Assembly: GCF_023195885.1 (NCBI RefSeq)
Contig: NZ_JALPKO010000002.1
Span: forward strand, 310,001 to 374,000
DNA: 64,000 nt
Source of the DNA: Methylonatrum kenyense
Lineage (GTDB): Bacteria > Pseudomonadota > Gammaproteobacteria > Nitrococcales > Aquisalimonadaceae
Direction of reading: 5' to 3'
The notes beneath the pieces were generated by a model. It saw only the letters and a program-made list of their open reading frames with translations. It had not been told where the DNA came from and ran no database searches. Made by a program: the position numbers and the translations under genes. Shown in pieces: positions 8,648 through 27,071 of this stretch (position 1 is the first letter of the stretch; every line of letters begins with the position of its first letter).

Positions 8648-8673
8648 GATGGATCCTCCTTCGCGGGCAGCCT

Positions 8674-9351
8674 TCAATCGCTGCCCAGCGGCTCCAGTTT
8701 AAGGTCGGCCAGTGCGCGGTTGGTCAGCGCACCGGTGGGACAGACAGCCATGCATTCGCCACAGGACACGCAGGTACTCTCGCCCATGGGCGTGTTCAGG
8801 TCGAAGGCGATGCGGGTGCCATAGCCCTTGCCGGACCGGGTAATCACATCATTGTGCTGCAATTCGTTACAGCCGCGCACGCAGCGGTCGCACAGGATGC
8901 AGGCCTGGTGGTCGACGGCGATCACCGGCGAGGACAGATCCACGCCCTGCGGCCGCCCGCTGGCGCCGTCGCGCAGGCGCACCTCGGTGATGCCGTAATC
9001 ACGGGCCATGTTCAGCAACTCGTCGTCACCGGTGGCGGCATCGCGTGCACTATCCTCAGGATAGTCGGCCAGCAGCATCTCCAGCAGCATGCGGCGGTGC
9101 TTTTCCACCTTTTCCGAGCGCGTGTCGACTTCCATGCCATCTTCGCAGGGCCGCACGCAGGAGGCCTGCAGATTGCGCGCACCGGTATCGACAACGCACA
9201 TCCGGCAGACGCCCACCGGGCGCATGCGCGTGCTGTGGCAGAGCACCGGAATATCGATGCCGAGTTCGCGGGCCGCATCCCAGATCGAGGTGCCGGCCGG
9301 AACCTCGGTGGCCTGACCGTCGATGGTCAGCTTGACGGTGTCATTGCTCAT
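8674..9351 (-). CDS. Formate dehydrogenase ferredoxin-domain subunit (FdsA N-terminus/HoxU-like)
   Basis: This 225-residue iron-sulfur protein matches the N-terminal third of NuoG or FdsA. It has a [2Fe-2S] ferredoxin domain with cysteines in VLCHSTRMRPVGVCRMC (about 37-52) and RPC, a histidine-type [4Fe-4S] region (about 80-120), and two [4Fe-4S] motifs, ACILCDRCVRGC and STCVSCGECMAVCPTGA, in the C-terminal half. It should relay electrons from the catalytic subunit to the flavin subunit. It overlaps the upstream flavoprotein gene by 4 bases and ends 26 bases before the catalytic ATG, so the three genes are co-transcribed. A HoxU-type hydrogenase subunit is the alternative reading, but no hydrogenase genes are present. 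Confidence 0.88.
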   Translation of the reverse strand: MSNDTVKLTIDGQATEVPAGTSIWDAARELGIDIPVLCHSTRMRPVGVCRMCVVDTGARNLQASCVRPCEDGMEVDTRSEKVEKHRRMLLEMLLADYPEDSARDAATGDDELLNMARDYGITEVRLRDGASGRPQGVDLSSPVIAVDHQACILCDRCVRGCNELQHNDVITRSGKGYGTRIAFDLNTPMGESTCVSCGECMAVCPTGALTNRALADLKLEPLGSD

Positions 9352-10973
9352 GCGTCCTCCTTCGTTCCGAGCCGCCGGGCGACCTCGGGAAACAGTTCCA
9401 TCACCCCGGTCACCGGCGACAGCGCCACCTGACCGAGGCCGCAGATCGAGGTCTGCGCCAGCGTGTCATCGAGTTCGTGCAGCAGCTCGGCAAGGCCGTC
9501 CTCGACCTCGCCGTTGAGCGCATCTTCAAGCATGGCCACGGCCTTGTTGCTACCCACACGACAAGGCACGCACTTGCCGCAGGACTCATTGCGGAAGAAA
9601 CGTGCCTGCGCGGTGGCGAGATCCAGTAGGTCGCGGCCTTCGGCCACGGCAACAAAGGCACCCGAGCCGAGTGCGCTGCCGGCCTTCTGCATGGCATCGA
9701 AGTCCAGCGGCGTGTCCGCCTTGTCGGCCGGCAGGAAGCGGGTCGAGGCGCCGCCCGGCGAGAAGGCCAGCAGCTGTTTGCCATCCGCGACGCCGCCGGC
9801 CCGGGCAATCAGATCAGTTACCGTGGTGCCCATGGGTACGCAGTAGACGCCCGGTTTGGCGACATCACCGGATACCGCCATGTACTTGAGACCCGGACAG
9901 TCGTTGGTGCCCTGGCTCTGCCACCAGTCGCCGCCGTTTTGCAGGATCATCGGCACCGCGGCGAAGGTCTCGACGTTGTTCATCAGTGTCGGCAGGCCGT
10001 TGAGGCCGACGTTGGTCGGGAACGGCGGCTTGTTGCGCGGCTCGCCGCGCTTATCTTCCAGCGCCTCGAGCAGGGCCGTCTCCTCGCCCAGGATGTAGCC
10101 GCCGGGTGAGATGAAGACCTCCATGTCGAACGGCTTGCCCGGACCGAAGGCGTCCGGCCCAAGCACCCCGAGTTCGCGCGCACGCACCAGTTCGCGGCGC
10201 AGGATTTCGGCGGCCTCCCCGTACTCGTGGCGCAGATAGATGATGCCGCGCTCGGCCTCCACCACCCAGCCGCCGATGATCATGCCTTCGATCATCAGAT
10301 GCGGCAGGGTCTCCATGATGCAGCGATCCTTGAACGTGCCCGGTTCACTCTCATCGGCGTTGCAGACCAGCTGCTTCGGCCCGCCCTTGGCGCCGCGGGT
10401 GAAGGCCCATTTCATGCCGGTGGGGAAGCCGGCGCCGCCCATGCCGCGCAGGCCGGAGGCCTTGAGCTCGTCGATCACCGTGTCGCGGCCCGCATCGGCG
10501 GCACCGTCACGCAGCGTCTTGAACATGCCGTAGTGGGCATCGGCGGTCGGGTACGGGTCGGTGGCGGCGTCAACCGCCTGCAGCACATTGTGCGCCTGCG
10601 CCTGACCGTCGAGCGCGAGCCGAACCTCGGTGGCATTGCTGGCCGCGTGGTGATGGTCCACCAGGGCGACCGGTGCCTGCTCACAGCGTCCCAGACAGGA
10701 GACCTCGCGCACCTCGACGTCCGGATCCTGCCGCAGTTCCTGCAGCAACTCCTCATGGAAGGCGGGTGCGCCGTGCATGCGGCAGACGACGTCGCGGCAG
10801 ACCTCGATCACGTGTTTGGCGCCGGGCTCTTCCTGAAACACCGGATAGAAACTCCGCAGCCCCTCCAGCCGGTAAAGCGGTTCACCGGTCTCCTTTGCCA
10901 GCTGGCTGAGCGTCTCGTCGCTCAGCCAGCCCTCTCGCTCCTGCAAAGCGAGCATCGTTTGCAACAACTTCAT
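9348..10973 (-). CDS. fdsB: Formate dehydrogenase NADH-module subunit, FdsG-FdsB fusion
   Basis: This 541-residue protein joins a thioredoxin-like NuoE/FdsG domain (about 1-140, with CRDVVC and CLGRC holding a [2Fe-2S] cluster) to a NuoF/FdsB domain. The second part has the FMN/NAD region (GMGGAGFPTGMKW, CNADESEPGTFKDR), a SLBB-like segment, and the [4Fe-4S] motif ESCGKCVPCR with the later SICGLG cysteine. It passes electrons from formate to NAD+. The ATG at 10973 is chosen over an upstream TTG (11015) because a GGAG lies before it and the N terminus then fits NuoE-type proteins. It is the first gene of the minus-strand formate dehydrogenase operon. In many bacteria fdsG and fdsB are separate genes. 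Confidence 0.9.
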   Translation of the reverse strand: MKLLQTMLALQEREGWLSDETLSQLAKETGEPLYRLEGLRSFYPVFQEEPGAKHVIEVCRDVVCRMHGAPAFHEELLQELRQDPDVEVREVSCLGRCEQAPVALVDHHHAASNATEVRLALDGQAQAHNVLQAVDAATDPYPTADAHYGMFKTLRDGAADAGRDTVIDELKASGLRGMGGAGFPTGMKWAFTRGAKGGPKQLVCNADESEPGTFKDRCIMETLPHLMIEGMIIGGWVVEAERGIIYLRHEYGEAAEILRRELVRARELGVLGPDAFGPGKPFDMEVFISPGGYILGEETALLEALEDKRGEPRNKPPFPTNVGLNGLPTLMNNVETFAAVPMILQNGGDWWQSQGTNDCPGLKYMAVSGDVAKPGVYCVPMGTTVTDLIARAGGVADGKQLLAFSPGGASTRFLPADKADTPLDFDAMQKAGSALGSGAFVAVAEGRDLLDLATAQARFFRNESCGKCVPCRVGSNKAVAMLEDALNGEVEDGLAELLHELDDTLAQTSICGLGQVALSPVTGVMELFPEVARRLGTKEDA

Positions 10974-11003
10974 CCCGGAACGCTCCGTCCAAACGCTATA
11001 AAA

Positions 11004-11030
11004 TTTATACTGCAATGCCCATGCCGTCAG
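11004..11030 (-). promoter_or_regulatory. Candidate promoter of the formate dehydrogenase operon
   Basis: On the minus strand TATAAA (11009-11004) lies in an AT-rich patch, unusual for this genome, with CTGACG (11030-11025) as a weak -35 at 15 bases spacing. A start about 10 bases on would give a leader of about 25 bases before the ATG at 10973. The spacing is short, so confidence is low. Confidence 0.35.
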
Positions 11031-11230
11031 TTTCCCGGCAGGTCATGCCCGAAGGCAGCACCGGTCCAGAACCGGGGCCTGCCCAATGGAACCGCCGCCA
11101 GTTGCAGCGTATCCGTCATACTTTCGGCTCTTGGCGGCCGTTGTGACACGGCCGGAACAGGCTGTACCTTGGGCGCATACGCACGCATTGCGCCGTGCTC
11201 CCACAACCCCGTTCCATGGAGGTCCGCATC

Positions 11231-11617
11231 ATGAACAGCACCGATCGCCGCAAGGACACCGTCTACGACGAGGCAACCATCAAGACCCGCCTGGCCGAGG
11301 AACTTCCCAACTGGTACTTCGAAAACGGGTGGATCCGGCGCAAGTACAAGACTTCCGGCTGGAAATCCACCCTGATGGTGATCAACACGGTTGGCCATCT
11401 TGCCGAGGCCGCGTTCCACCATCCCGACATCTCGGCGTCCTACGCCTTCGTCGTGGTCAAGCTGATGAACCATGCCGCCAAGGGTGTCACCGACAAGGAC
11501 TTCGAACTTGCCCGCAAGATCGAGGACGTCGTCATGTGGCAACCCGGCCTGATCGAAGGGGGCTCGCTTGAGGGCACCCCGGACGATCCGCGTTTCAAGT
11601 ACATCAAGTACGACTGA
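11231..11617 (+). CDS. Pterin-4a-carbinolamine dehydratase family protein
   Basis: This 128-residue protein belongs to the PhhB/DCoH family, which dehydrates or recycles 4a-hydroxy-pterins. The signature HHPD (with the preceding AEAAF), then a tyrosine, a histidine in LMNHAAKGVT and an aspartate (KDF) are in the right order. The ATG at 11231 is selected because GGAGG (11218-11222) stands 8 bases before it. There is no phenylalanine hydroxylase gene nearby. It lies divergent from the formate dehydrogenase operon and convergent with fhcC. Family members not linked to aromatic hydroxylases have been proposed to act in molybdopterin metabolism; here either molybdopterin or methanopterin upkeep is possible. 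Confidence 0.85.
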   Translation: MNSTDRRKDTVYDEATIKTRLAEELPNWYFENGWIRRKYKTSGWKSTLMVINTVGHLAEAAFHHPDISASYAFVVVKLMNHAAKGVTDKDFELARKIEDVVMWQPGLIEGGSLEGTPDDPRFKYIKYD

Positions 11618-11631
11618 ACGGCGGTGCCGCC

Positions 11632-12444
11632 TCAATCCTGCAGTAACAGGATCTCACCCAGGCCCTGGACGCTGCGGTCGCCCAGCCAGCGCTGGACCCG
11701 ACACGGGTTCAGCGCTACAAACGGGCCGTCCAGCCCGCGCCAGGCCTTGCTCATCAGCGCCAGAATCGACAGCGCCTGTTCGCCGTTATCCCGGAACAGC
11801 GGCGACAGGCTGGCCGGCGGCTGCCGCAACAGAATCGTGCCGCGCCGCATAGCCCAGCCCAGGCCATGGCCGGTGCTGCCCAATACGGCAATCGTGCCGG
11901 CGCGCATCCTGGCCGCAGTCCATGCGCCGCTGTTGCCTTCGATCAGTACCGAACCGCGCCGCATGCGTTCCCCGACGCGATCGCCGGCGTTGCCGCGAAC
12001 CAGCAGCAGGCCGCCTTCCATGCCGTACTTTTCGCCGGGACGGGCCGCAGCCAGGCAATCGCCGGCATCCCCGTCGATCACGATCCGGCCGCCCCGCATG
12101 CCGTTGCCCGCGTACTCACCGGCATTGCCGGTGATATGCAGTTCGCCGCCACGCATCTTGCGCCCGGCATACGGCCCTGCCGGGCCATGAACGCGGATCG
12201 TACCCTCGCTCATGCCGTAGCCAATGCCCCACAGGCAGGCCGCGTCGGTTTCGAATTCCAGTGTCTCGCCGGGCGCGCCGGAGATGTCGAACAGCTCGCC
12301 CAGCGGCAGCCGCTCGGCACCCTTCCACACCTGGAGTTGGGCAACACCCTCCGGGCTCAGTTCACGCAGCCGTTCCGGCACCAGATGGCTGACGTCGATG
12401 GTCGACGCCGTGGGTTCACGCAGGCGCAGGCGCAATGCGGTCAT
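11632..12444 (-). CDS. fhcC: Formyltransferase/hydrolase complex subunit C (FhcC)
   Basis: FhcC is the structural, repeat-built subunit of the complex that takes the formyl group from H4MPT via methylofuran and releases formate. The 270-residue protein shows the family's GXGXG beta-helix: repeated blocks such as GPAGPYAGRKMRGG, GNAGEYAGNGMRGG and GNAGDRVGERMRRG at 13- to 19-residue spacing (about 95-215). It is homologous to FwdC/FmdC of methanogens. It overlaps fhcD by 4 bases and is the last gene of a fhcB-A-D-C operon. Its stop lies 14 bases from that of the convergent pterin dehydratase gene. Confidence 0.92.
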   Translation of the reverse strand: MTALRLRLREPTASTIDVSHLVPERLRELSPEGVAQLQVWKGAERLPLGELFDISGAPGETLEFETDAACLWGIGYGMSEGTIRVHGPAGPYAGRKMRGGELHITGNAGEYAGNGMRGGRIVIDGDAGDCLAAARPGEKYGMEGGLLLVRGNAGDRVGERMRRGSVLIEGNSGAWTAARMRAGTIAVLGSTGHGLGWAMRRGTILLRQPPASLSPLFRDNGEQALSILALMSKAWRGLDGPFVALNPCRVQRWLGDRSVQGLGEILLLQD

Positions 12445-13340: not shown

Positions 13341-14980
13341 CGTTCCCTCCGACAGCTGTAGGCCACCAGTTTGCCGCGCCCGTCACCCTCGATGTCGTCA
13401 TCGCGGACCGGGTAGTTGGCCAGGCCCATCGCGTAATGCGAGCGGAAGTGTTCGTCCAGCGATGTCTCGATGCCGGCGTCGTGTTCGGTCTGCATCCAGT
13501 GCGTCACACCCCAGGAGATATCCACCAGCTTGCCGTCACGAACCACCAGCGTGCCGTCCTTGAACACCAGGCTGGCGTCGCGGAACACGGCTTCCCAGTC
13601 ATCACCCGGCGTGTACACCGCGATATCCGCGGCCGAGCCGGGCGCCAGGTTGCCGCGTTCGGTCAGGCCCAGCAGCCGTGCCGGGCCGGACCGGGTGATG
13701 ACGGCGATTTCGTAGAGATCGTATTCCCGCTCCATAGATGCCAGATGGGTCGCGGCCTGCGCTTCGGCGTGGACGCTCGACAAGCGATCATTGCGGAAAC
13801 TGCGGTCCATCAGCAGACGGATCAGGTGCGGGTAGCTGGTGAACGAGGCGCCGTTCGGGTGATCGGTGGTCAGCACTACCCGCCAGGGGTCGTTGACGCC
13901 GAGGAACAGTTCCAGGCCGATGGCCCACTGCAGGGCGTTGACGAAACTCTTGTCGCGGTACTTGAAGGGCACCACGCCGCAGCCGGCCTCGCATTCCAGA
14001 TCCGCCGCCAGCCAGCGTTTCGGGTTGGCATGCGGGTGCGCCGCATACTGCAGCATGGCGTCAGCCGAGATCGTGCATGTCTGGCCGAACATCACCTGGC
14101 CGACATCGACGCTGACGTTGTCATGGCCGTTGATGTACTCGGCGATCGGCGCCGCCGCCGAGGAGAAACCCATGTCGCCCTCGGTGCCGTAGCTGTGGAA
14201 CTGCAAATGGGTCAGGTGCACCGGTACGCCCCCGGTGGCTCCCATGGTTGCCAGCGTGGTCTCGACGTTGCCCGGCACGCCCAGGTTGCAGGTATGCACA
14301 TGCAGCGGTTTCGGCACGCCAAGTTCCTGCACCGCTGTCGACAGGGTCTCCAGCACACGCCGACCGGTGACACCGTAGTACGGGTTGGTTTCGTCCAGGT
14401 CCATCTTGCGCTGGTTGAACTTGAAGGCGTTGATGCCGCCCGGATTGACCACCTTGATGGCCATGCAGCGGGTCGCCTGCAGGATCCAGCTCACGTAATC
14501 GTTGATCTGCGCCTGCGGCGCGTCGGCCGCCAGCAGCTTGAGCAGGAAGTCGTCGTTCCCGAGCATGGCGAAGCCGCCCTTGTCCATGATCGGGATATCG
14601 CCCATTTCCTGATGCGCCAGGCGGGCGTTGACCGGCAGCAACGCCGGCTCGAACACCGCGGTATAACCCATCCGTGCGTACTCCAGCCCGGTTTCCCAGG
14701 CCGTCGGCACCGGGCCACGCAGGCTGTCTTCGACTTCGGCACGGAGTTCCGGCGGCAGCAGCGTGCGGGCGATATTGACCTTGCCGCCGCCGACATGGGT
14801 ATGCATATCGATACCGCCGGCCATGACAATCTTGCCGCGCAGCTCATAGGTCTGCTGGGGTTCGGCATCGGCGCCCGGCGCATCGATAATGCGGCCGTCC
14901 CGCACCCAGATGTCGCGGACCTCACCGTTGATGCCCTGCACCGGATCGTAGACGGTGCCGCCACGAAGCAGTGTCAGCAT
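13337..14980 (-). CDS. fhcA: Formyltransferase/hydrolase complex subunit A (FhcA)
   Basis: FhcA is an amidohydrolase-fold subunit that hydrolyses formyl-methylofuran to formate. The 547-residue protein starts like other metallo-hydrolases (LLRGGTVYDP) and carries the metal-binding HTHVGGG after GGIDM, histidines in HVHTCNLG and HLTHLQFHSYG, and TTDHPNGASF near residue 350-360 holding the likely catalytic aspartate. It overlaps fhcB by 7 bases and fhcD by 4. Length and motifs agree with methylotroph FhcA and archaeal FwdA/FmdA. Confidence 0.95.
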   Translation of the reverse strand: MLTLLRGGTVYDPVQGINGEVRDIWVRDGRIIDAPGADAEPQQTYELRGKIVMAGGIDMHTHVGGGKVNIARTLLPPELRAEVEDSLRGPVPTAWETGLEYARMGYTAVFEPALLPVNARLAHQEMGDIPIMDKGGFAMLGNDDFLLKLLAADAPQAQINDYVSWILQATRCMAIKVVNPGGINAFKFNQRKMDLDETNPYYGVTGRRVLETLSTAVQELGVPKPLHVHTCNLGVPGNVETTLATMGATGGVPVHLTHLQFHSYGTEGDMGFSSAAAPIAEYINGHDNVSVDVGQVMFGQTCTISADAMLQYAAHPHANPKRWLAADLECEAGCGVVPFKYRDKSFVNALQWAIGLELFLGVNDPWRVVLTTDHPNGASFTSYPHLIRLLMDRSFRNDRLSSVHAEAQAATHLASMEREYDLYEIAVITRSGPARLLGLTERGNLAPGSAADIAVYTPGDDWEAVFRDASLVFKDGTLVVRDGKLVDISWGVTHWMQTEHDAGIETSLDEHFRSHYAMGLANYPVRDDDIEGDGRGKLVAYSCRRER

Positions 14981-16341
14981 GAGGAGGTCTCCCGGGCCGG
15001 CAATCCGGCCAGTATCCGGTCAAGCACGTCGGCGGCGGCTGGTTGTTGACTATCTCGCAAGCTGCGCAGCGGCAAGCTCACCACGTGGTCGCTGCGCACG
15101 CTGGTACCGGCATGGTCAAGCCCGGGCACACCGATGGGGATCAATACATCAGGCTGCCAGTCGAGGCGCTCGGGATACGGCGTCAGGACGATACTTGGCA
15201 CCTCGGCCTTGCCCGGCAGGTGATCCCCTTCCATGCCACCGATCCAGACCATGCAGTCCGTTGTGCCCGAAGACAGCAAGCGCCCGGCATCGATCAGTCG
15301 TGGTTCGTAGATCACGTCATCGCCCCGGAAGCGGATGCGACCGGGATACCCGGTGGACCAGAGGCAGACTTCCTCGAACGTGGTTGCGCTCTCGTTTCCC
15401 GCCAGCGCCAGGCCGCCCCAGCGCTTTTCGGCATTCAGGGACTGCACCAGCGTCTGCAATGCTTCCACCAGCAGATCGCCATGCGCGCCCAGGCCCGCAG
15501 GCCCCCAGACCACGGCGCCATAGTCCACCTCGCGCATGCGCGAGGCCAGTTCGGCCAGTGCCGTCATTGGCAGGTCCGAAGTCGCCGCGTCGTCCAGGTC
15601 GCGTTCTTCCAGCAGGCAGCGCAGGGCGCCGATGGCATAGGGGACGTCGTAGACCGGGCAGTCGATGTGCTGCCAGTGCAGTTGTTCGCTGTCGGAGGCG
15701 TCGGGCGCCTGCGGGCCGATGACTACGACCTCGCGGGGCTTGCCGTCCAGGAATGCCGCCTGGCTACCCTCCAGAACCCGCTCGGTCAGTCGAGGCATGA
15801 CGTCCACACCATTGGTGCCGACCAACAGAACCAATTCCGCTCGATTGCGCAGTTCCGACATTGTCGTGCTCATGCCGCCGGATGACTGCATGGCGAGCAC
15901 GCCCTGAAAGCCCCCGATACCATGCAGATGATCCATTGAGGCTTGGGTGCGTTGCGCCAGCCGCAGCGCTGCGCGGCTGCCGGCAACATCCGTGGCAAGT
16001 CCGGTCAGCAGGGGCTCGCGCGCCTCACCCAGCAGACCTGCGGCCTGGCTCACGGCGGCATCAAGGCTGGCCTCGGCACCGTTGACCCGGGCTTTGGCAC
16101 TGCTCGGCGGCTGGCCAAAGCCGGCGCGACTGCGCACGCAGGCGCCATGCTCTATCGCAAAGCCGGAATCGCTGGCGCGCAGTGCAAGATCGTCACAGCC
16201 CAGGCCGCAAAAGGGGCAGGGCACATTGCGTGCGTTGTCCAAGTCCGAAATCTCCGGATCGGGAATGTGTTGGAAACTGCTCCGCCCCGACCGCTGCGCC
16301 TCTTCTGATCGGGCGCATTGCTCTGCCGGGTGATCGGGCAT
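14974..16341 (-). CDS. fhcB: Formyltransferase/hydrolase complex subunit B (FhcB)
   Basis: FhcB is the methylotroph counterpart of the molybdenum/tungsten subunit FmdB/FwdB. Methylotroph FhcB proteins are known to lack redox function and act structurally, as the complex hydrolyses rather than oxidises. The 455-residue protein has the N-terminal CPFCGLGCDDL element (about 41-51), related to the iron-sulfur motif of FwdB, and a molybdopterin-oxidoreductase-like body. The N terminus before that element is about 40 residues and has no strong ribosome site, so the start could be later. It heads the operon fhcB-A-D-C and is divergent from the beta-RFAP synthase gene. Confidence 0.88.
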   Translation of the reverse strand: MPDHPAEQCARSEEAQRSGRSSFQHIPDPEISDLDNARNVPCPFCGLGCDDLALRASDSGFAIEHGACVRSRAGFGQPPSSAKARVNGAEASLDAAVSQAAGLLGEAREPLLTGLATDVAGSRAALRLAQRTQASMDHLHGIGGFQGVLAMQSSGGMSTTMSELRNRAELVLLVGTNGVDVMPRLTERVLEGSQAAFLDGKPREVVVIGPQAPDASDSEQLHWQHIDCPVYDVPYAIGALRCLLEERDLDDAATSDLPMTALAELASRMREVDYGAVVWGPAGLGAHGDLLVEALQTLVQSLNAEKRWGGLALAGNESATTFEEVCLWSTGYPGRIRFRGDDVIYEPRLIDAGRLLSSGTTDCMVWIGGMEGDHLPGKAEVPSIVLTPYPERLDWQPDVLIPIGVPGLDHAGTSVRSDHVVSLPLRSLRDSQQPAAADVLDRILAGLPARETSSC

Positions 16342-16676: not shown

Positions 16677-17666
16677 ATGAACAAGTCATCTTCAACGGTG
16701 CGGGCGTCGCGGGTCCGCGTGCAGGCACCAGCCCGTCTGCATATGGGGTTTCTCGACCTCAACGGCGGGCTGGGTCGCCGCTTTGGCAGTGTCGGCCTGG
16801 CGCTGGACCCGATTTCCACGGTGCTCTGGGCCGAGCCGCATTCGGAGGTGCTGGTGGAGGGCGATGCACCGGAGCGAGCGCCCCGCGTTGCCGGTCAGAT
16901 GCTGGCCCAGCTCGGTCACCCCGGCGGGATTCGCCTGCATTTCGAATCGATGATCCCCGAACACGTGGGACTTGGCTCCGGCACGCAACTCGCGTTGGCG
17001 GTCGGAGCCGCGATCAGCCATCTGTACGGCCTCGACTGGGATACCGCGCGGGTCGCGCACCAGCTTGATCGCGGCGCACGCTCAGGCATTGGTGTCGGTG
17101 CTTTTGACCACGGAGGCTTTCTGCTTGATGGCGGTCGTGGCGAGGCCGATCGACCACCGCCGCTGCTGTCGCGGCTGGACTTCCCGGAGACCTGGAGCAC
17201 GGTGCTGATCCTCGACCGGACGGAGCGCGGTTTGCACGGCGCGGCGGAGCTGCAGGCGTTCCGGGATCTGCCGCAGTTCCCCGCGGATACGGCCGCGCAC
17301 TTGTGCCGGGTGGCGCTGATGCAGCTGCTTCCGGCGATCCGGGAGCAGGATCTGGCGTTGTTTGCCCGTGCAATCTGGAGCCTGCAAACCGCGGTCGGCG
17401 ATCATTTTGCGCCGGCTCAGCAGGGTCGTTTTTCCAGTCCGGCGGTTGCCAGCCTCCTGGAACAGGCGGCCGCCGAGGGTTTGCCCGCCGGCCAGAGTTC
17501 CTGGGGACCGACCGGGTTTGTCGTGCAGCCGGACCGTGCCGGCGCGGAACGGTATTGCGAGCGGCTGGGTGGGCAGGTCCCGGAACTGGAGTTCCTGATT
17601 TGCCGTGGCCGCAACACGGGGGCCGAGGTGCTGGTCGAGCATGCCCAGCGACTGGCGTCAAGTTAG
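16677..17666 (+). CDS. Beta-ribofuranosylaminobenzene 5'-phosphate synthase
   Basis: This enzyme condenses 4-aminobenzoate with PRPP, releasing CO2 and pyrophosphate, in the first committed step that joins the arylamine to the future H4MPT. The 329-residue protein has the GHMP-fold start RLHMGFLDLNGGLGRRFGS, the glycine-rich VGLGSGTQLALAVG loop, RGARSGIGVGAFDHGGF, and a C-terminal GQSSWGPTGF block. All are hallmarks of the methylotroph/archaeal family. It heads a plus-strand run of cofactor genes; the next start is 3 bases past its stop. Confidence 0.93.
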   Translation: MNKSSSTVRASRVRVQAPARLHMGFLDLNGGLGRRFGSVGLALDPISTVLWAEPHSEVLVEGDAPERAPRVAGQMLAQLGHPGGIRLHFESMIPEHVGLGSGTQLALAVGAAISHLYGLDWDTARVAHQLDRGARSGIGVGAFDHGGFLLDGGRGEADRPPPLLSRLDFPETWSTVLILDRTERGLHGAAELQAFRDLPQFPADTAAHLCRVALMQLLPAIREQDLALFARAIWSLQTAVGDHFAPAQQGRFSSPAVASLLEQAAAEGLPAGQSSWGPTGFVVQPDRAGAERYCERLGGQVPELEFLICRGRNTGAEVLVEHAQRLASS

Positions 17667-18884: not shown

Positions 18885-19868
18885 GTGTCACTCAAGAGTC
18901 TTTCCAACGCACCAAGCATCAGTGACGGCGCCGATGCGATCGTGCGCCAGCTTGTCGACAATGCCGATGCCTTCCGGCTCGGTGTCAGCCGCAGCAGCAG
19001 CGGCGTCACACTGATCGACGCAGGTATCGATAAACGCGGTGGCCTGGAAGCCGGTCGCCTGATCACCGAGATCTGCATGGGTGGGCAGGGCCGCGTCAGT
19101 GTGCACGGCGGTTCCGGTATTTCCGACTGGCCGATGGCGATCAGCGTGCACAGCGTGAACCCGGTACTTGCCTGCCTTGCCAGCCAGTACGCGGGCTGGA
19201 GCCTGTCTCACAAGGAAAGCAAGTTCATGGCCCTGGGCTCCGGCCCGGCCCGTGCGCTGGCGCAGAAGGAGCCCTTGTTCGAGGAGCTCGCCTACCGTGA
19301 CCGCAGCAGTCGAACCAGTCTGGTGCTGGAAGTCGATCAGGTGCCGCCGGACGCCCTGCTGGAAAAGATTGTCGCCGATTGTGGTCTGGCCAGCCCGGAA
19401 GAGCTGACCATCATCCTGACGCCGACGCAAAGCCTGGCCGGCATTACCCAGGTGGTGGGCCGCGTGCTCGAGGTGGCGCTGCACAAGGTGCATACCCTGG
19501 GCTTCGATCTGGACAAGGTGGTCGATGGCCTGGGCTGGGCACCGTTGCCGCCTGCCGGTGGCGACTTCCTGAAAGCCATGGGCCGGACCAATGACGCCAT
19601 CATTTTCGGCGGCACCGTCGTGCTCCAGGTCGATGCCGACGATACCGAGGCGGAGAAGCTGGCGCTGGAGATGCCGAGCCAGGTGTCGAAGGACTACGGC
19701 ACGCCGTTCGCCGAGTTACTGAAGCAGTTCGAGTTCGACTTCTACAAGATGGATCCGAACCTGTTCAGCCCGGCACGGATCGTGATCAATGCCCTGCCCA
19801 GCGGCAAGCGGTTCGTGGCCGGCCGGGTCGACGAGGACGCCCTGACCCGCGCCCTCGACGGTCAATAG
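18885..19868 (+). CDS. mch: Methenyl-H4MPT cyclohydrolase
   Basis: Mch hydrolyses N5,N10-methenyl-H4MPT to N5-formyl-H4MPT, feeding the Fhc complex. The 327-residue protein matches the family length and shows the diagnostic segments GGLEAGRLITEICMGG (about 46-61), VNPVLACLASQYAGW and the ALGSGPARAL block (about 119-128), followed by DRSSRTSLVLE. The GTG start at 18885 has an AGAGGGG about 10 bases upstream. It sits in the plus-strand run between the two ATP-grasp genes, as in other H4MPT-using bacteria. Confidence 0.95.
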   Translation: MSLKSLSNAPSISDGADAIVRQLVDNADAFRLGVSRSSSGVTLIDAGIDKRGGLEAGRLITEICMGGQGRVSVHGGSGISDWPMAISVHSVNPVLACLASQYAGWSLSHKESKFMALGSGPARALAQKEPLFEELAYRDRSSRTSLVLEVDQVPPDALLEKIVADCGLASPEELTIILTPTQSLAGITQVVGRVLEVALHKVHTLGFDLDKVVDGLGWAPLPPAGGDFLKAMGRTNDAIIFGGTVVLQVDADDTEAEKLALEMPSQVSKDYGTPFAELLKQFEFDFYKMDPNLFSPARIVINALPSGKRFVAGRVDEDALTRALDGQ

Positions 19869-21713: not shown

Positions 21714-22412
21714 TCAGTCAGCCTGCCCCGTGCAGATCGCTGTCAGGCGGTCCGGAGCAAGCCGGCAGTCCCAGAGTGCCGAGGCCAGCAGCACGCCGGC
21801 GGCCCCGGCGTCCCGCGCCACCTGCAGATCCTCGGCGTGGCGGATGCCGCCCGCCAGGTGAAAGCGGTGATCCGGGGCACGCTGGCGCAGCATTTCAAGC
21901 CGTGCCAGGTCCGGCCCGCGGTTGCTACCCACCCGCCGCAGGTCCATCAGGATCAGATCCTGCGGCCAGTCTGCGGTGGCCTGCTCCAGCTCCTTCGGCC
22001 CCAACGTCTCGGCACCGCGTCGGTCCAGCGACAACACCGGTTGACTGCTGCCCGCGAGTGCCGCCCGAAGTGCCGGCAGGCTGGCGAAGGCCTCGCTGCC
22101 CAGTACCGGCCGCACGCCTTCTGGCGGGCGCAGTGGCCCGGCGTCCAGCCAGACCGTTCCCGGCCAGTCCCGGGCCAGCGCGGCGACCAGCGCGAGCTGG
22201 TCGCCGCTGCCGGTAATCGCATCCAGGTCGGCCAGATAAAGGGTATCGAACGGGTGCAGCTCAAGCAGTGCCGCCAGCACGGCCTCGGGCCTGCTGTCGG
22301 CAATCAGGGCACAGTCCAGCGGCTGGTAGCGATCGCGACTTCCACCGGCTGCCCGCACCACGCGATCGTGCATCAAGTCCACCGCCGGAATGATCTGGAG
22401 GGGGGCTGACAT
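21714..22412 (-). CDS. HisA-like TIM-barrel protein of the H4MPT gene cluster
   Basis: This 232-residue protein is related to HisA (phosphoribosyl-formimino isomerase) and belongs to the archaeal/methylotroph HisA-related group (COG1411-type). It opens with IIPAVDLMHDRVVRA, where HisA has IPAIDL, and has YLADLDAITG, LMDLRRVGSNRGPD and a glycine-rich FHLAGGIRHAEDL phosphate site. The role in cofactor synthesis is unknown. It is the only minus-strand gene inside a plus-strand run. Its ATG abuts the next gene's ATG exactly, forming CATATG at 22410-22415. Confidence 0.75.
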   Translation of the reverse strand: MSAPLQIIPAVDLMHDRVVRAAGGSRDRYQPLDCALIADSRPEAVLAALLELHPFDTLYLADLDAITGSGDQLALVAALARDWPGTVWLDAGPLRPPEGVRPVLGSEAFASLPALRAALAGSSQPVLSLDRRGAETLGPKELEQATADWPQDLILMDLRRVGSNRGPDLARLEMLRQRAPDHRFHLAGGIRHAEDLQVARDAGAAGVLLASALWDCRLAPDRLTAICTGQAD

Positions 22413-23351
22413 ATGCGCGTGGTGATCCTCGAATCGGTATTTTCCGGCGGTATCGGTGATCCCGCGCTGGCACGGCGACTGGCGCCGGAAGCCCGTCAGA
22501 TGGTCATGGCGATGCTGGAGGATAGCATTGCCGAGGCCGCTATTGAGCCGCGTGTTCCCGTTACCGCCGACCTTGCCGATCTGATTCCGGCCGTCTATCG
22601 CGTGGTTTCAAGCCCCGGGGAACCGCTGGCGGACTTCTGGCGTCGGGCCACGGCCGATGCGGATGCCGTGATCCCGATCGCGCCGGAGACCGGCGGTGCA
22701 CTGGCCCGCATGACCAGGCTTCTTCAAGCGTCCGGCCGCCGCCTGCTCGGCAGCTCGGATGTGGCAGTCCGGATCGCCGGCAGCAAGGCCCGTACTGCGG
22801 CGGTATTGCGGCAGGCAGGGGTGGCAGTGGCACCGACCTGGGCCAGCGGTGACGCTTTGCCCGACCACGCCGGGTCCTGGTTGCTGAAGCCGGATGACGG
22901 TGCGGACTGCGAGGGCATTCAACTGTTGCGCACGGTACCGGCGCGCATCCCCGAAGGCCAGGTGCTGCAGCCGGTTCTGCCGGGATGCTCCTGCAGCCTG
23001 TGCCTGCTCATTACCACTGACCGGGTAACAGTGCTGGGTTGCAATGAGCAGCAGATCAACGGCGACGGCGAGACATTTCGTTACCACGGCAGTCAGGTTG
23101 CCGTGCGGCCGGTGCTGGCGCGGCACCGGCAGTTGGCCGATGCGATCCACATGGCAATCCCCGGTCTGTACGGTTTCGTCGGCGTGGATTTTCTGGACGC
23201 TGACGGTGACCTGACCGTGCTGGAGGTCAATCCGCGGCCCACCACCTCCTTCGCCGGCTTGCGTGCCGCCACCGGCACCGGGCTGGGTGTCCATCTGCAG
23301 ACCCTGCTGCGGTCGTCGACGGTGCCGGAAACGCAAAAGGTGGCGCCATGA
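22413..23351 (+). CDS. mfnD: MfnD-like ATP-grasp ligase (methylofuran glutamate ligase)
   Basis: MfnD of methanogens joins glutamate to tyramine in methanofuran synthesis; methylotroph homologues are thought to add glutamates to tyrosine or a tyramine-like core. The 312-residue ATP-grasp protein starts VVILESVFSGGIGDPAL, has SWLLKPDDGADCEGIQLL (about 150-167) and the metal site DLTVLEVNPRPTTSF (about 270-284). Its ribosome site (GGAGGGGGG, 22396-22404) lies inside the 5' end of the antisense HisA-like gene. It overlaps the mfnF-like gene by 4 bases. Confidence 0.78.
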   Translation: MRVVILESVFSGGIGDPALARRLAPEARQMVMAMLEDSIAEAAIEPRVPVTADLADLIPAVYRVVSSPGEPLADFWRRATADADAVIPIAPETGGALARMTRLLQASGRRLLGSSDVAVRIAGSKARTAAVLRQAGVAVAPTWASGDALPDHAGSWLLKPDDGADCEGIQLLRTVPARIPEGQVLQPVLPGCSCSLCLLITTDRVTVLGCNEQQINGDGETFRYHGSQVAVRPVLARHRQLADAIHMAIPGLYGFVGVDFLDADGDLTVLEVNPRPTTSFAGLRAATGTGLGVHLQTLLRSSTVPETQKVAP

Positions 23352-24379
23352 GCACCGTCGTGGGTTGGGATATCGGCGGCGCCAACCTGAAGCTCAGTGT
23401 GCTCACCGATGGTGTGGTGCGGGCGACCCTGCAACTCCCCTGTCCACTCTGGCGTGGCCTGGACCGGCTGGAGCAGGCCCTGGACCAGGCGCGCCAGCGA
23501 CTGGATTGGCCAGGCCGAAAGACCCGACACGCAGTGACACTGACCGGTGAACTGGTTGACCTGTTTCCGGACCGCACCACCGGTGTGCAGCAGATCCTCG
23601 ATGTGGTGGTGGCACGCTTGCCCGGGCCGCTGGCGGTTTATGGTGGGCCCAGCGGTTTGCTGTCGCCGGCTGCAGCGCGTGAACACCCCACCAGTGTGGC
23701 TTCCGCCAACTGGCATGGCAGTGCGCGACTACTTGCCATGACTGGTGGTGACGGTGTGTTGGTGGATGTGGGCAGCACCACCAGTGACATCATTCCGGTA
23801 CGCGATGCCACGGTATGTCACCAGGGGCTCAGTGATCACGAGCGGCTTGTGTCCGGGGAACTGGTGTATGCCGGGGTGTTACGCACGCCAGTGATGGCCA
23901 TGGCCCGCTCGGTGCGTCTGGACCGGCAGCAGGTGCCGCTGATCGCCGAGTTGTTTGCCACCGCCGCCGACGTCTACCGCCTGACCGGCGACATCGCGCT
24001 GGATGCGGACCCCTGGCCGACCGCAGATGGCGGTGCACGGACGGTGGAAGGCAGCGCGCGCCGGCTGCTGCGCATGATCGGGCTGGATTTCCAGCAGGCC
24101 GGACTGGACCGTGCCCGAACCCTGGCGCAGCAGTTGCGTCGGCTGCAGTTACGGACCCTGGGGCGCGCCCTGGACAAGGTGGATGGCGCCGGTACGGCGC
24201 GCCTTGTCGCAGCCGGTAACGGCCGCTTCCTGGTGCATGAGCTGGCGCAGCGCTTGGGCCGCCCCTGCGACGATTTCGAGCAGGCCTGCGCCATCCATGC
24301 CCTCGATCCCGACATGGATCTGGCCAATTTTGCCCCGGCCATTGCCGTCGCCATGCTCTGGGAGCAGACCCGTGACTAG
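23348..24379 (+). CDS. mfnF: MfnF-like furan-amine condensing enzyme
   Basis: MfnF (COG1548) couples the furan-methyl diphosphate to the glutamyl-tyramine part of methanofuran, in an ASKHA-type fold often mislabelled hydantoinase/oxoprolinase. The 343-residue protein shows the N-terminal phosphate loop VVGWDIGGANLKLS (about 4-17), ASANWHGSARLL, and the second loop GVLVDVGSTTSDIIPV (about 137-152). Length and motifs fit the H4MPT-linked family. The start overlaps mfnD by ATGA and the stop is overlapped 8 bases by the GTG of the next gene. Confidence 0.82.
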   Translation: MSTVVGWDIGGANLKLSVLTDGVVRATLQLPCPLWRGLDRLEQALDQARQRLDWPGRKTRHAVTLTGELVDLFPDRTTGVQQILDVVVARLPGPLAVYGGPSGLLSPAAAREHPTSVASANWHGSARLLAMTGGDGVLVDVGSTTSDIIPVRDATVCHQGLSDHERLVSGELVYAGVLRTPVMAMARSVRLDRQQVPLIAELFATAADVYRLTGDIALDADPWPTADGGARTVEGSARRLLRMIGLDFQQAGLDRARTLAQQLRRLQLRTLGRALDKVDGAGTARLVAAGNGRFLVHELAQRLGRPCDDFEQACAIHALDPDMDLANFAPAIAVAMLWEQTRD

Positions 24380-25772
24380 GGCGATACGCATTGGCAGCCT
24401 GCCCTACGTGGAGGAAGGGGCGCGGCTGTTCGAGGCAGTGGCGCACTGGCCCTGGTCGGTGTTCCTGGATAGCGGTCCGGCCAGTCGCCGTCACGGCCGC
24501 TACGACATCATTGCCGCGAATCCGATGACCGTGCTGATGACCCGGGGGCGGCTGACCGAGATCCGGCGTGAACGGGAATCGGTTCTGTCCTCGGCGGATC
24601 CGCTGGAACTGCTTGGCCGCGAGCTCGGACCGCTGGTCGAGACACCCGATTTCCTGCCGCTGGCCGGCGGCTGCCTGGGTTATTTCGCCTACGATCTGGC
24701 GCACCGGCTGGACGGGCGGCATGGCGTGGCGAGCCCGGGCGAGGGGCTGCCGGAGATGGCGGTCGGCCTGTACGACTGGGTGGTGGTGATCGATCACCAG
24801 GAGCGTCAGGCCTGGCTTGCCAGCCAGGGCCAGAGTCATGACACGACACACATGTGGCCCGAGCTGATTGCCCTGTTCAGCCAGCCGCCGCCCGAGCGAT
24901 CACGCCGGCGTCATCGCCTGCGGGTTTCGCCGGGGCTGGAGTCCAATCTGGACGAAGCCGCCTACCGGCGCTGCTTCGATCGCATGATGGACCATCTGCA
25001 GGCCGGCGACTGCCGTCAGGTGACGCTGTCGAGGCGCTTTGATGTCAGCGTCTCCGGCGATCCGTGGAACGGCTACAAGCGGCTGCGCATGCTGAATCCC
25101 GCCGCCTTCGGTGCGTTCCTGCGGCTACCCGAATGCACGGTCCTCAGTAATTCGCCGGAGCGTTTCCTGCGCGTGCATGAGGGTCGGGTCGAGGCCAGCC
25201 CGGTAGGGGCGGCACGCAGCCGGTCTCGCGATGCCCTCAGCGATGCCGACCTGATGCGCCGGCTGCTGCAGGATACCGGCGAGAAAGCCGCCAGCGACGC
25301 CCTGATCCAGCTCATGCAGCAGGACCTCAGCCGATTCTGCCGGCGGGGAAGCGTCCGCGTCCTCGAACGCCACCGGCTGGAGAGCTCGGTTCATGTGCAC
25401 CATCTGATCAATCGCCTCAGCGGCGAGCTGGATTCAGCCTACAGTGCGCTGGACGCCCTCCGGGTCTGTTTTCCGGGCGCCTCCACCACCGGCACCCCGC
25501 GACAGCAGGCGATGCAGATCATCGACGAGGTCGAGCCTTGTGGCCGCGGGATCTGCAGCGGCGCCATCGGCTACCTGGGCGGCAATGGTCATATGGATCT
25601 CAATGTGGCCATTCACACCCTGGTGCATACCCGCGGCAAATTGCGCTTTTCCGCGGCCGGCAATCTGACCGAGGAGTCGGCGCCGGAAGACAGCTACGCC
25701 GAAACCAGTGAGCGCGCGGACACGCTGATGCAGTTGCTCGCACTGCGGGAGGTCGGCGATGCGCGTGATTAA
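24372..25772 (+). CDS. PabB-like protein lacking the catalytic residues
   Basis: This 466-residue protein is homologous along its length to aminodeoxychorismate synthase component I. The N-terminal half is well kept (LPYVEEGARLF, FLDSG, GRYDIIAANP, GGCLGYFAYDLAHRLDG). The C-terminal chorismate site is not. PIKGT, whose lysine is catalytic, reads PVGAA (277-281, glycine at 279). The AEN...VDL.RND block reads ASDALIQLMQQD. The arginine of IAIRT is H415 (VAIHT), and the AGGGIV loop reads AGNLTEE. DEVEP and GASTTGTPR partly remain. Normal PabB activity is therefore unlikely, yet the frame is intact and translationally coupled: GTG at 24372 inside the end of mfnF, and its end overlaps mfnE by 14 bases. 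The function is unknown; a new ligand or structural role is possible. Confidence 0.8.
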   Translation: MTRAIRIGSLPYVEEGARLFEAVAHWPWSVFLDSGPASRRHGRYDIIAANPMTVLMTRGRLTEIRRERESVLSSADPLELLGRELGPLVETPDFLPLAGGCLGYFAYDLAHRLDGRHGVASPGEGLPEMAVGLYDWVVVIDHQERQAWLASQGQSHDTTHMWPELIALFSQPPPERSRRRHRLRVSPGLESNLDEAAYRRCFDRMMDHLQAGDCRQVTLSRRFDVSVSGDPWNGYKRLRMLNPAAFGAFLRLPECTVLSNSPERFLRVHEGRVEASPVGAARSRSRDALSDADLMRRLLQDTGEKAASDALIQLMQQDLSRFCRRGSVRVLERHRLESSVHVHHLINRLSGELDSAYSALDALRVCFPGASTTGTPRQQAMQIIDEVEPCGRGICSGAIGYLGGNGHMDLNVAIHTLVHTRGKLRFSAAGNLTEESAPEDSYAETSERADTLMQLLALREVGDARD

Positions 25773-26331
25773 GCTCGGCGGCAGCCTGATGCAGGGCCCC
25801 TGGTTGCGTGCCTGGCTCGGCGCCGTCAGCCGTTGCCCCGATGCCGTGATCGTGCCGGGCGGCGGCATGTTCGCCAATGCTGTGCGCGAGGCGCAGGATT
25901 TCTGGGAATTCAGCGAGGACGTGGCGCACCGCATGGCGCTGCTGGCGATGGATCAGTTCGGGCTGATGTTGGCCGCAATGGACGAGCGGCTGGTGCCGGT
26001 CAGCAATGCGGCCATGATTCCCGGTCTGGTCGGCATAGGCCACGTGCCGGTCTGGTTGCCGGCCACCGAACTCAGTGGTGGTCACCCCGAGATTCACGAG
26101 AGTTGGGATTTCACCTCCGACAGCCTGTCCCTCTGGCTGGCGGCCACCCTGGCTGCGGACGAACTGATTCTGGTCAAGTCGGCCGATCCGCCGGGTGGAA
26201 ACCCGGGAATCCAGCAACTGGCCGATGGCGGCATTGTTGATGCGGCCTTCCCGGCACTGCTGGGCAGGTTCCCGATGGCGGTTCGCGTTCTCGGGCCGGC
26301 GCAATTGCCGGCACCGGACGCGCCGCTCTAA
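25759..26331 (+). CDS. mfnE: MfnE-like amino acid kinase-fold enzyme
   Basis: MfnE (COG2054) phosphorylates the furan-methyl phosphate to the diphosphate used by MfnF. The 190-residue protein has the amino-acid-kinase fold marks: VIKLGGSL at the start, VIVPGGGMFANAVREAQ (about 30-46), and LILVKSADPPGG (about 137-148) near the nucleotide site. It overlaps the PabB-like gene by 14 bases and ends 8 bases from the convergent mfnB-like gene. It is the last gene of the plus-strand cofactor run. Confidence 0.8.
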   Translation: MRVIKLGGSLMQGPWLRAWLGAVSRCPDAVIVPGGGMFANAVREAQDFWEFSEDVAHRMALLAMDQFGLMLAAMDERLVPVSNAAMIPGLVGIGHVPVWLPATELSGGHPEIHESWDFTSDSLSLWLAATLAADELILVKSADPPGGNPGIQQLADGGIVDAAFPALLGRFPMAVRVLGPAQLPAPDAPL

Positions 26332-26339
26332 ACGATTCG

Positions 26340-27071
26340 CTAGGATGCGGTTGCCGGCAACGCGGCGCTGGCGCCGCTATCGGATATCCGCAACACCGCG
26401 TCCCGCACCTGTTTTGGATCCAGTCGACCGCGGCGATCGCCATTACACAGCCCACCGCGAAACCCCAGGTAGTCGGCACCGAACGGTGCCAGTCCCGGAA
26501 TATCGCTGAGGCGAAGCGATCCGGCGAGCCCGGTGAGCAGTCCATGACGGCGGCTTGTCGTCACAAAGGCGGCAATCTCCCGGTTACTCAACAGCTCGGG
26601 CAGGGCGCCGTGGGACTTGTCGGCCGTGTCCAGCATGGCGCCGGCAAAGTCGGACGTCGCCAGGTCAGCCATTTCGCTGTCGCCCGGAACGCCATGATCG
26701 GCAAGCCAGACGGCGACCAGATGGTAGCGCCGCGCCAGCGGGGCGAGGGCCTCAAGGCAGGCCTCGAGCTGCTGGTCCATGCGCAGTCCGATCTTGACGA
26801 AATCCACACCACAATCGCCGATGGCGCGGACGCGTTCGGTCAGGCCGGCAGCTGGCAGCGGCGTGTCGCCGATGGTGGCGCTGGTCAGCGTTCGACCGTT
26901 CACCCTGCATACCGCATCGCGAATCATCGGCGGGTCCACCGCGCCCAGTGCGCCCCGCGACGGCTCCTTCATATCGATAAGGTCCACGCCGGCATCGAGT
27001 ACGATGTCGACCTCATCCATGTCGCGCACGCTGGCGAGGAGTTTCAGGCGCTTGCGTGTGTCTGCCGCCAT
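26340..27071 (-). CDS. mfnB: MfnB-like (5-formylfuran-3-yl)methyl phosphate synthase
   Basis: MfnB builds the furan ring precursor from two glyceraldehyde-3-phosphate molecules. The 243-residue TIM-barrel protein (DUF556/COG1891) has LLASVRDMDEVDIVL, the lysine of LIDMKEPSRGALGA (about 31-44), VKIGLR, and DTADKSHGAL (about 147-156), which carries the second family lysine. PFGADYLGFRGGLC forms the C-terminal phosphate site. It is transcribed with the DUF447 gene, whose end it overlaps by 28 bases, and converges on mfnE. Confidence 0.85.
   Translation of the reverse strand: MAADTRKRLKLLASVRDMDEVDIVLDAGVDLIDMKEPSRGALGAVDPPMIRDAVCRVNGRTLTSATIGDTPLPAAGLTERVRAIGDCGVDFVKIGLRMDQQLEACLEALAPLARRYHLVAVWLADHGVPGDSEMADLATSDFAGAMLDTADKSHGALPELLSNREIAAFVTTSRRHGLLTGLAGSLRLSDIPGLAPFGADYLGFRGGLCNGDRRGRLDPKQVRDAVLRISDSGASAALPATAS

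Follow-up and report, generated by a model that had tools for sequence, protein, structure and literature searches.

A PabB-like protein without the catalytic residues of chorismate enzymes, maintained between mfnF and mfnE in Methylonatrum

The stretch of DNA analyzed here (the window) comprises 64,000 nucleotides of Methylonatrum kenyense (contig NZ_JALPKO010000002.1, positions 310,001 to 374,000) and carries a tetrahydromethanopterin (H4MPT)/methylofuran gene cluster, in which a gene related to pabB is located between mfnF and mfnE. The gene occupies positions 24372 to 25772 of the plus strand, starts with GTG at 24372 and encodes 466 amino acids with no internal stop. It overlaps mfnF (end 24379) by 8 bases and mfnE (start 25759) by 14 bases, so that the intact frame and both overlaps reported in an earlier reading of these letters alone (the sequence-only reading) agree with the coordinates. 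Its product has lost the residues on which PabB catalysis depends and is nevertheless under strong purifying selection, which on balance points to a pseudoenzyme. The features of the gene, followed by those of its neighbors, are as follows (window coordinates).

24372..25772, plus strand: PabB-like gene, candidate pseudoenzyme, 466 amino acids, GTG start (open reading frame and domain matches)
24372..24851, plus strand: residues 1-160, approximately the N-terminal Anth_synt_I_N domain, best-conserved part across the deepest split of the genus
24441..24524, plus strand: residues 24-51 (AHWPWSVFLDSGPASRRHGRYDIIAANP), 93% identity across the deepest split of the genus, including the LxS motif
25158..25160, plus strand: E263 (E. 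coli E258), kept (alignment)
25200..25214, plus strand: PVGAA, residues 277-281, replacing PIKGT, lysine lost (alignment)
25287..25325, plus strand: residues 306-318, AASDALIQLMQQD replacing AENLMIVDLMRND, a change that removes E302 together with both glutaminase anchors, D308 and R311 (alignment)
25383..25406, plus strand: SSVHVHHL, residues 338-345, H341 new (comparison with 141 intact proteins)
25611..25619, plus strand: IHT, residues 414-416, E. coli R410 lost (alignment)
25653..25670, plus strand: AAGNLT, residues 428-433, replacing AGGGIV (alignment)
25701..25703, plus strand: E444 (E. coli E439), kept (alignment)
23348..24379, plus strand: mfnF (open reading frame and family match)
25759..26331, plus strand: mfnE (open reading frame and family match)
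22413..23351, plus strand: ATP-grasp gene, MfnD-like (family match)
26340..27071, minus strand: mfnB-like gene (4-HFC-P synthase), convergent (family match)
18885..19868, plus strand: mch (Pfam match)
16677..17666, plus strand: beta-RFAP synthase family gene (family match)

In PabB, K274 of the PIKGT motif is the catalytic lysine, E302 and E439 are the two Mg glutamates, and R410 together with the GGG loop holds chorismate. Alignment with E. coli PabB revealed that the window protein carries G279 for K274, A281 for T276, A307 for E302, S308 for N303, Q313 for D308, Q316 for R311, H415 for R410, A429 for G424 and N431 for G426, with E258 (E263), H339 (H344), G425 (G430) and E439 (E444) being retained. 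The alignment thus bore out the motif changes noted in the sequence-only reading (PVGAA, the lost AEN..VDL.RND block, H415 and the rewritten AGGGIV loop), and the loss of D308 and R311 read from the same alignment is an addition to it. As described in parts of a study on the E. coli enzyme, D308A, D308N or R311A each abolishes the complex of PabB with PabA, while D308E restores it partly (PMC7617670). Because the catalytic residues and the D308/R311 pair are gone, neither chorismate conversion nor glutaminase docking in the usual mode should be expected of this protein.

Both family domains were still recognized, with Chorismate_bind (PF00425, 208.9 bits) and Anth_synt_I_N (PF04715, 70.6 bits) above their Pfam gathering scores. 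The protein fell below the cut-off for all NCBIfam matches listed (25 of 26 matched models), with scores of 307.7, 239.9 and 236.9 bits against cut-offs of 622, 408.55 and 328.4 for the PabB equivalogs, the last being TIGR00553. A structure prediction, which the sequence-only reading had called for, gave a PabB fold: the AlphaFold2 model (43 sequences) reached a mean predicted local distance difference test (pLDDT) score of 89 and a predicted template modeling score of 0.90, and the closest solved structures were E. coli PabB chains (8rp0; Z 50.3, 2.2 Å, 445 residues). According to this model, the predicted protein is a full-length PabB fold rather than a fragment.

Three further genomes of the genus, designated G001 to G003, encode the protein in the same gene position. 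In descending order of identity to the window protein, the three are 94, 88 and 54% identical to it; the same sites are lost in each, and the 8- and 14-base overlaps recur (4/4 genomes, including the window). Across the four members, the site of the catalytic lysine is occupied by G, G, G and A, compared with K in 141/141 intact proteins from other bacteria (see below). E302 of the metal-ligand pair is replaced by A, A, A and Y with E439 kept, R410 by H, H, H and N, and the AGGG loop by AAGN or ACSQ. The glutaminase anchors are likewise replaced (D308 by Q, Q, E and T; R311 by Q, Q, Q and S); the G001 protein has E at the D308 site, yet R311 is lost there too. In addition, Y210 was lost in all four members, and E. 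coli P240 became A, A, A and E. The most distant member, G003 (54%), carries different replacements, namely AVAGS for PIKGT, LNT for IRT and ACSQ for AGGG. H341 is identical in all four (H341-x-H343-H344), at a position where T occurs in 125 of the 141 intact proteins and H in none. Each of the three further genomes also encodes a PabB bearing PIKGT and the AEN..VDL.RND block, which in G003 ends at a contig edge upstream of the arginine. The agreement of four assemblies argues against chance or an assembly error.

The mfnF-pabB-mfnE arrangement is common in other bacteria, and 141 of the 145 readable mfnE-adjacent PabBs have intact catalytic residues, the four degenerate ones being exactly those of the four genus genomes. 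The sequence-only reading had set its proposal against the case of normal homologues in the same cluster with this copy alone damaged; normal homologues do exist outside the genus, but the damage is common to four genomes rather than confined to one copy. This survey covered 166 loci with PabB beside mfnE, yielding 146 distinct proteins (141 intact, 4 degenerate and 1 cut), and a recount found K, E302, D308, R311, R410 and E439 in 141/141 intact rows. Counted as intact were one row with IRS for IRT and every catalytic residue (L206) and one with AGGA in place of AGGG (L063); two rows (L129 and L131) have identical sequences from residue 100 to residue 430, and merging them gives 140/144. Of 195 loci where a PabB-like protein was matched, 29 in which mfnE was missing or not adjacent on the same strand were omitted from the count, as were the mfnE loci at which no PabB was found beside mfnE (2/30, 3/45 and 5/40 in three sets). 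In one order, presumed to be Methylococcales, mfnE was detected in 225 of 251 genomes, of which 70 stretches were examined (the 30 with the best scores and 40 chosen by hand to widen the spread). The survey began with a scan that used two conserved N-terminal peptides as the query, which biases toward similar proteins, and it was repeated from mfnE; the 166 loci combine both approaches. Among the 70 non-genus loci of the peptide scan, 68 reach the active site, all with the lysine, E302, D308 and R311, and the other two end before it; the arginine was present in all 67 loci long enough, and mfnE lies downstream on the same strand in 54, with mfnF upstream in many of those. Two mfnE matches within a single genome were seen in G173 and in G540.

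The host genome contains three chorismate-enzyme genes, encoding TrpE (scoring above the equivalog threshold and adjoined by the gene for a TrpG-type glutaminase), a canonical PabB on another contig (TIGR00553, 369.4 against a cut-off of 328.4 bits) and the PabB-like protein; confirmation of a canonical pabB elsewhere in the genome was one of the checks named in the sequence-only reading. PabC also scored above its cut-off, and no second TrpG/PabA was found in the host genome apart from a weak match (32% identity, E 3.6e-9) that is probably CarA or another amidotransferase. Since PabB, TrpE, TrpG and PabC are intact elsewhere in the genome, the supply of 4-aminobenzoate, of which we take the beta-RFAP synthase family protein to be a user, should be independent of the PabB-like gene. 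The chorismate-enzyme genes of 19 non-genus mfnE genomes numbered two in 16, three in 2 and four in 1, so that most such genomes seem to have no pabB other than that of the cluster, with the second gene taken as TrpE. Given these counts and the wide occurrence of an intact pabB beside mfnE, the ancestral supply of 4-aminobenzoate suggested in the sequence-only reading is likely. Two published papers already name pabB as a gene commonly associated with H4MPT in methylotrophs (PMC3615186, PMC4109929).

Selection on the gene was estimated as the ratio of nonsynonymous to synonymous substitution rates (dN/dS) by the NG86 (Nei-Gojobori) method with bootstrap ranges, comparing the window with G002 and with G001. 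The PabB-like gene gave 0.035 (0.020-0.052) and 0.065 (0.045-0.093), respectively; in these two comparisons the intact PabB reached 0.087 (0.059-0.113) and 0.154 (0.112-0.204). For its neighbors the values were 0.079 and 0.132 (mfnF), 0.043 and 0.175 (mfnE), 0.051 and 0.072 (mch), and 0.029 and 0.077 (RimK-like gene), and residues 271-350, the former active-site region, gave 0.023 and 0.046 by themselves. The dS values of the PabB-like gene (0.80 and 1.16) fall inside the range of its neighbors and give no hint that synonymous sites are themselves constrained; dS against G003 was taken as saturated, and only amino acid identity was used for that genome. The protein is thus under strong purifying selection comparable to that on working neighbor genes, as the sequence-only reading had proposed from the intact frame and its overlaps. 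A gene in decay was excluded by the low dN/dS, which lies below that of the working PabB of the genus.

The distribution of this constraint along the protein differs from that in intact PabBs. Between the window and G003, identity was 64% in residues 1-160, 50% in 161-270, 35% in 271-350 and 50% in 351-466, whereas the means in the same four regions were 42, 47, 65 and 65% among 2,799 pairs of intact proteins (48-58% overall identity, mfnE-based survey only, with proteins shared between pairs, which are therefore not independent). Residues 1-160 were 64-66% identical across the split of the genus, compared with a maximum of 53% among the intact pairs. The N-terminal identity minus that of residues 271-350 was +0.29, whereas it did not rise above -0.09 in these pairs or above -0.004 over all 141 proteins (4,811 pairs), and the inverted pattern occurred in 0/2,799 intact pairs. 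Residues 52-95 and 126-150 were conserved beyond any intact pair; residues 24-51, at 93% identity where intact pairs average 57%, were matched or exceeded in conservation by 62 of the 2,799 and hence are not unique in this respect. Conservation was gone at residues 276-284, 304-325, 367-378 and 419-436, and across the deepest split the first, second and fourth of these segments were 33, 23 and 24% identical, only the loop at 114-125 (22%) being lower. Consistently, all four members keep 22/28 near-invariant residues in 1-160, 14/28 in 161-270, 9/36 in 271-350 and 21/49 in 351-466. Judging from this pattern, it seems to be chiefly the N-terminal domain that carries the present function. The Trp site of the family presumably lies within this domain, with residues 32-34, the LxS motif of the effector site, forming part of it. 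The conserved domain is the counterpart of the Trp-binding N-terminal domain of TrpE and PabB, differing from it in the replaced P240. Trp is reported, in parts of the same E. coli study, to be bound without inhibiting effect in all structures of aminodeoxychorismate synthase (PMC7617670).

Within the host's order (Nitrococcales), mch was present in 4/54 genomes, all four belonging to this genus, and because of this restriction the H4MPT/methylofuran cluster was probably acquired by the genus. Phylogenetic analysis (102 rows, quick method) placed the four PabB-like proteins in one clade with a long stem (0.87), apart from the PabB of the genus itself. Constraining this clade to group with the genus's own PabB was 50 log units worse (approximately unbiased test, p-AU 0.024; the group was named after inspection of the tree), which disfavors a recent duplicate of the genus's own pabB, while placement outside the PabB of the order together with Ectothiorhodospira marina was compatible (p-AU 0.547); long branches limit both tests. 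The Ectothiorhodospira marina PabB (L037:8001-9362) is canonical and falls outside the clade formed by the PabBs of the order, and of all outside rows it is, by path, the one closest to the PabB-like proteins; no mfn genes were found in the stretch fetched around it. Taken together, the distribution of mch, the shared gene order and the tree suggest horizontal arrival with the cluster.

We consider it somewhat probable that the PabB-like protein is a fixed pseudoenzyme, namely a redundant acquired pabB that lost catalysis and was kept for a non-catalytic accessory or regulatory task near MfnF and MfnE. Under such a scenario, an H4MPT/methylofuran cluster with pabB between mfnF and mfnE would have entered an ancestor of the genus that already owned a working pabB, and the redundant cluster copy would then have given up its ability to convert chorismate, bind the metal and dock the glutaminase. 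It would subsequently have been retained mainly through its N-terminal (effector) domain, for a task most likely accessory or regulatory to the probably cotranslated MfnF and MfnE, i.e., in methylofuran assembly. Several points weigh against this explanation. Contact with MfnF and MfnE is drawn from gene order, the sample consists of four sequences of one genus, three of them closely related, and within this close trio the C-terminal part is equally constrained. The long-branched tree names no cluster donor, the nearest protein by path being the non-cluster PabB of Ectothiorhodospira marina. One Gallionellaceae assembly keeps two intact PabBs (L068 and L091), one adjoining mfnE, and therefore redundancy by itself is insufficient to explain the loss. 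Moreover, E263, H343, H344, T373, G374, P376 and E444 are kept in 4/4 members, and because E263, H344, E444 and several pocket residues persist, chemistry of another kind may be possible.

Such chemistry would make the protein a new enzyme, whose former pocket, metal free or differently metallated, acts on another methylofuran or H4MPT substrate through E263, H344, E444, T373 and H341. The retained residues just listed, the H341-x-H343-H344 motif and the strength with which residues 271-350 are constrained among the three closely related members all speak for it; however, a new active site shared by the genus should have kept the segments of the old one alike, and across the deepest split these rank among the least conserved of the protein. 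We regard this explanation as doubtful, though not negligible. Somewhat more doubtful is a special form of effector function, in which the N-terminal domain would now act on its own to sense or carry an aromatic precursor of methylofuran (tyrosine, tyramine or glutamyl-tyramine), controlling or feeding the MfnF/MfnE step. It is suggested by the descent of the conserved domain from an aromatic amino acid site and by the presumed origin of methylofuran, for which one published account gives a dipeptide of glutamate with tyrosine or tyramine as the likely building block (PMC8141765).

A regulator or decoy that binds TrpG, PabB or TrpE and tunes the split among tryptophan, folate and H4MPT would fit the single TrpG-type glutaminase found for both TrpE and PabB, as well as conservation of the very domain in which the family's tryptophan site is seated. 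Replacement of the PabA anchors D308 and R311 and loss of Y210, each in 4/4 members, argue otherwise and leave this role improbable; a scaffold for the glutaminase was likewise made unlikely by the loss of both anchors. The gene might also be a decaying remnant whose frame persists solely to spare the translationally coupled mfnE from the polar effect of a stop or frameshift, as the overlaps shared by the four genomes would allow. Nevertheless, coupling preserves no amino acids, the dN/dS is below that of the working PabB and, as point estimates, of mfnF and mfnE, and residues 1-160 are more conserved than in any intact pair, making a remnant very improbable. Finally, it is hardly credible that the protein still acts on chorismate with its residues relocated, or that the sequence is an artefact. 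Both family domains exceed the Pfam gathering thresholds by a wide margin, but the loss extends jointly to the lysine, a metal ligand, the arginine and the loop of glycines, and the four assemblies agree.

Compared with PabB, including the form encoded between mfnF and mfnE, the putative pseudoenzyme shares fold, length, domain order and gene position and is 36-46% identical to aligned intact PabBs, but it is without the catalytic lysine, one metal ligand, the arginine, two loop glycines and both glutaminase anchors. A parallel in the same C1 pathway is FhcB, described in a published report as a cofactor-less scaffold of the Fhc complex (PMC10100899). Both are enzyme homologues retained in that pathway, FhcB having lost its cofactor; however, FhcB belongs to an unrelated family and its complex is structurally known, whereas the PabB-like protein is known here from its sequence and predicted fold. 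The window also contains fhcB (14974-16341), whose product scored 241.4 bits against the TIGR03129 cut-off of 327.8 with no Pfam match; it is a diverged scaffold subunit, and such divergence may be usual for FhcB.

Among the papers listed by a literature search that covered few subscription journals, there was no account of a catalytically dead PabB or of pabB with methylofuran. With the intact type at the same operon position in many other bacteria, the loss seen only in one soda-lake genus and the selected part visible, a change from enzyme to non-enzyme is experimentally testable here. The protein is, moreover, a candidate player in bacterial methylofuran synthesis, for which the transaminase is still unassigned according to one paper (PMC8141765). 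Annotation of the gene as "pabB" would falsely credit the cluster with 4-aminobenzoate supply.

Other features of the window were observed around these genes. A HisA-like gene (PF00977; Orf17-like; 21714-22415, minus strand) is located inside the plus-strand cluster. As called, the start codons of this gene and of the MfnD-like gene stand back to back (CATATG, 22410-22415), and promoters could fit between the two only if one of the starts is wrong. Between fhcC and a formate-dehydrogenase-like gene set lies an open reading frame of 202 amino acids without a Pfam match (11027-11635, minus strand). NuoE-like and NuoF-like parts are fused in a single open reading frame at 9348-11015, near a molybdopterin oxidoreductase subunit (6431-8677).

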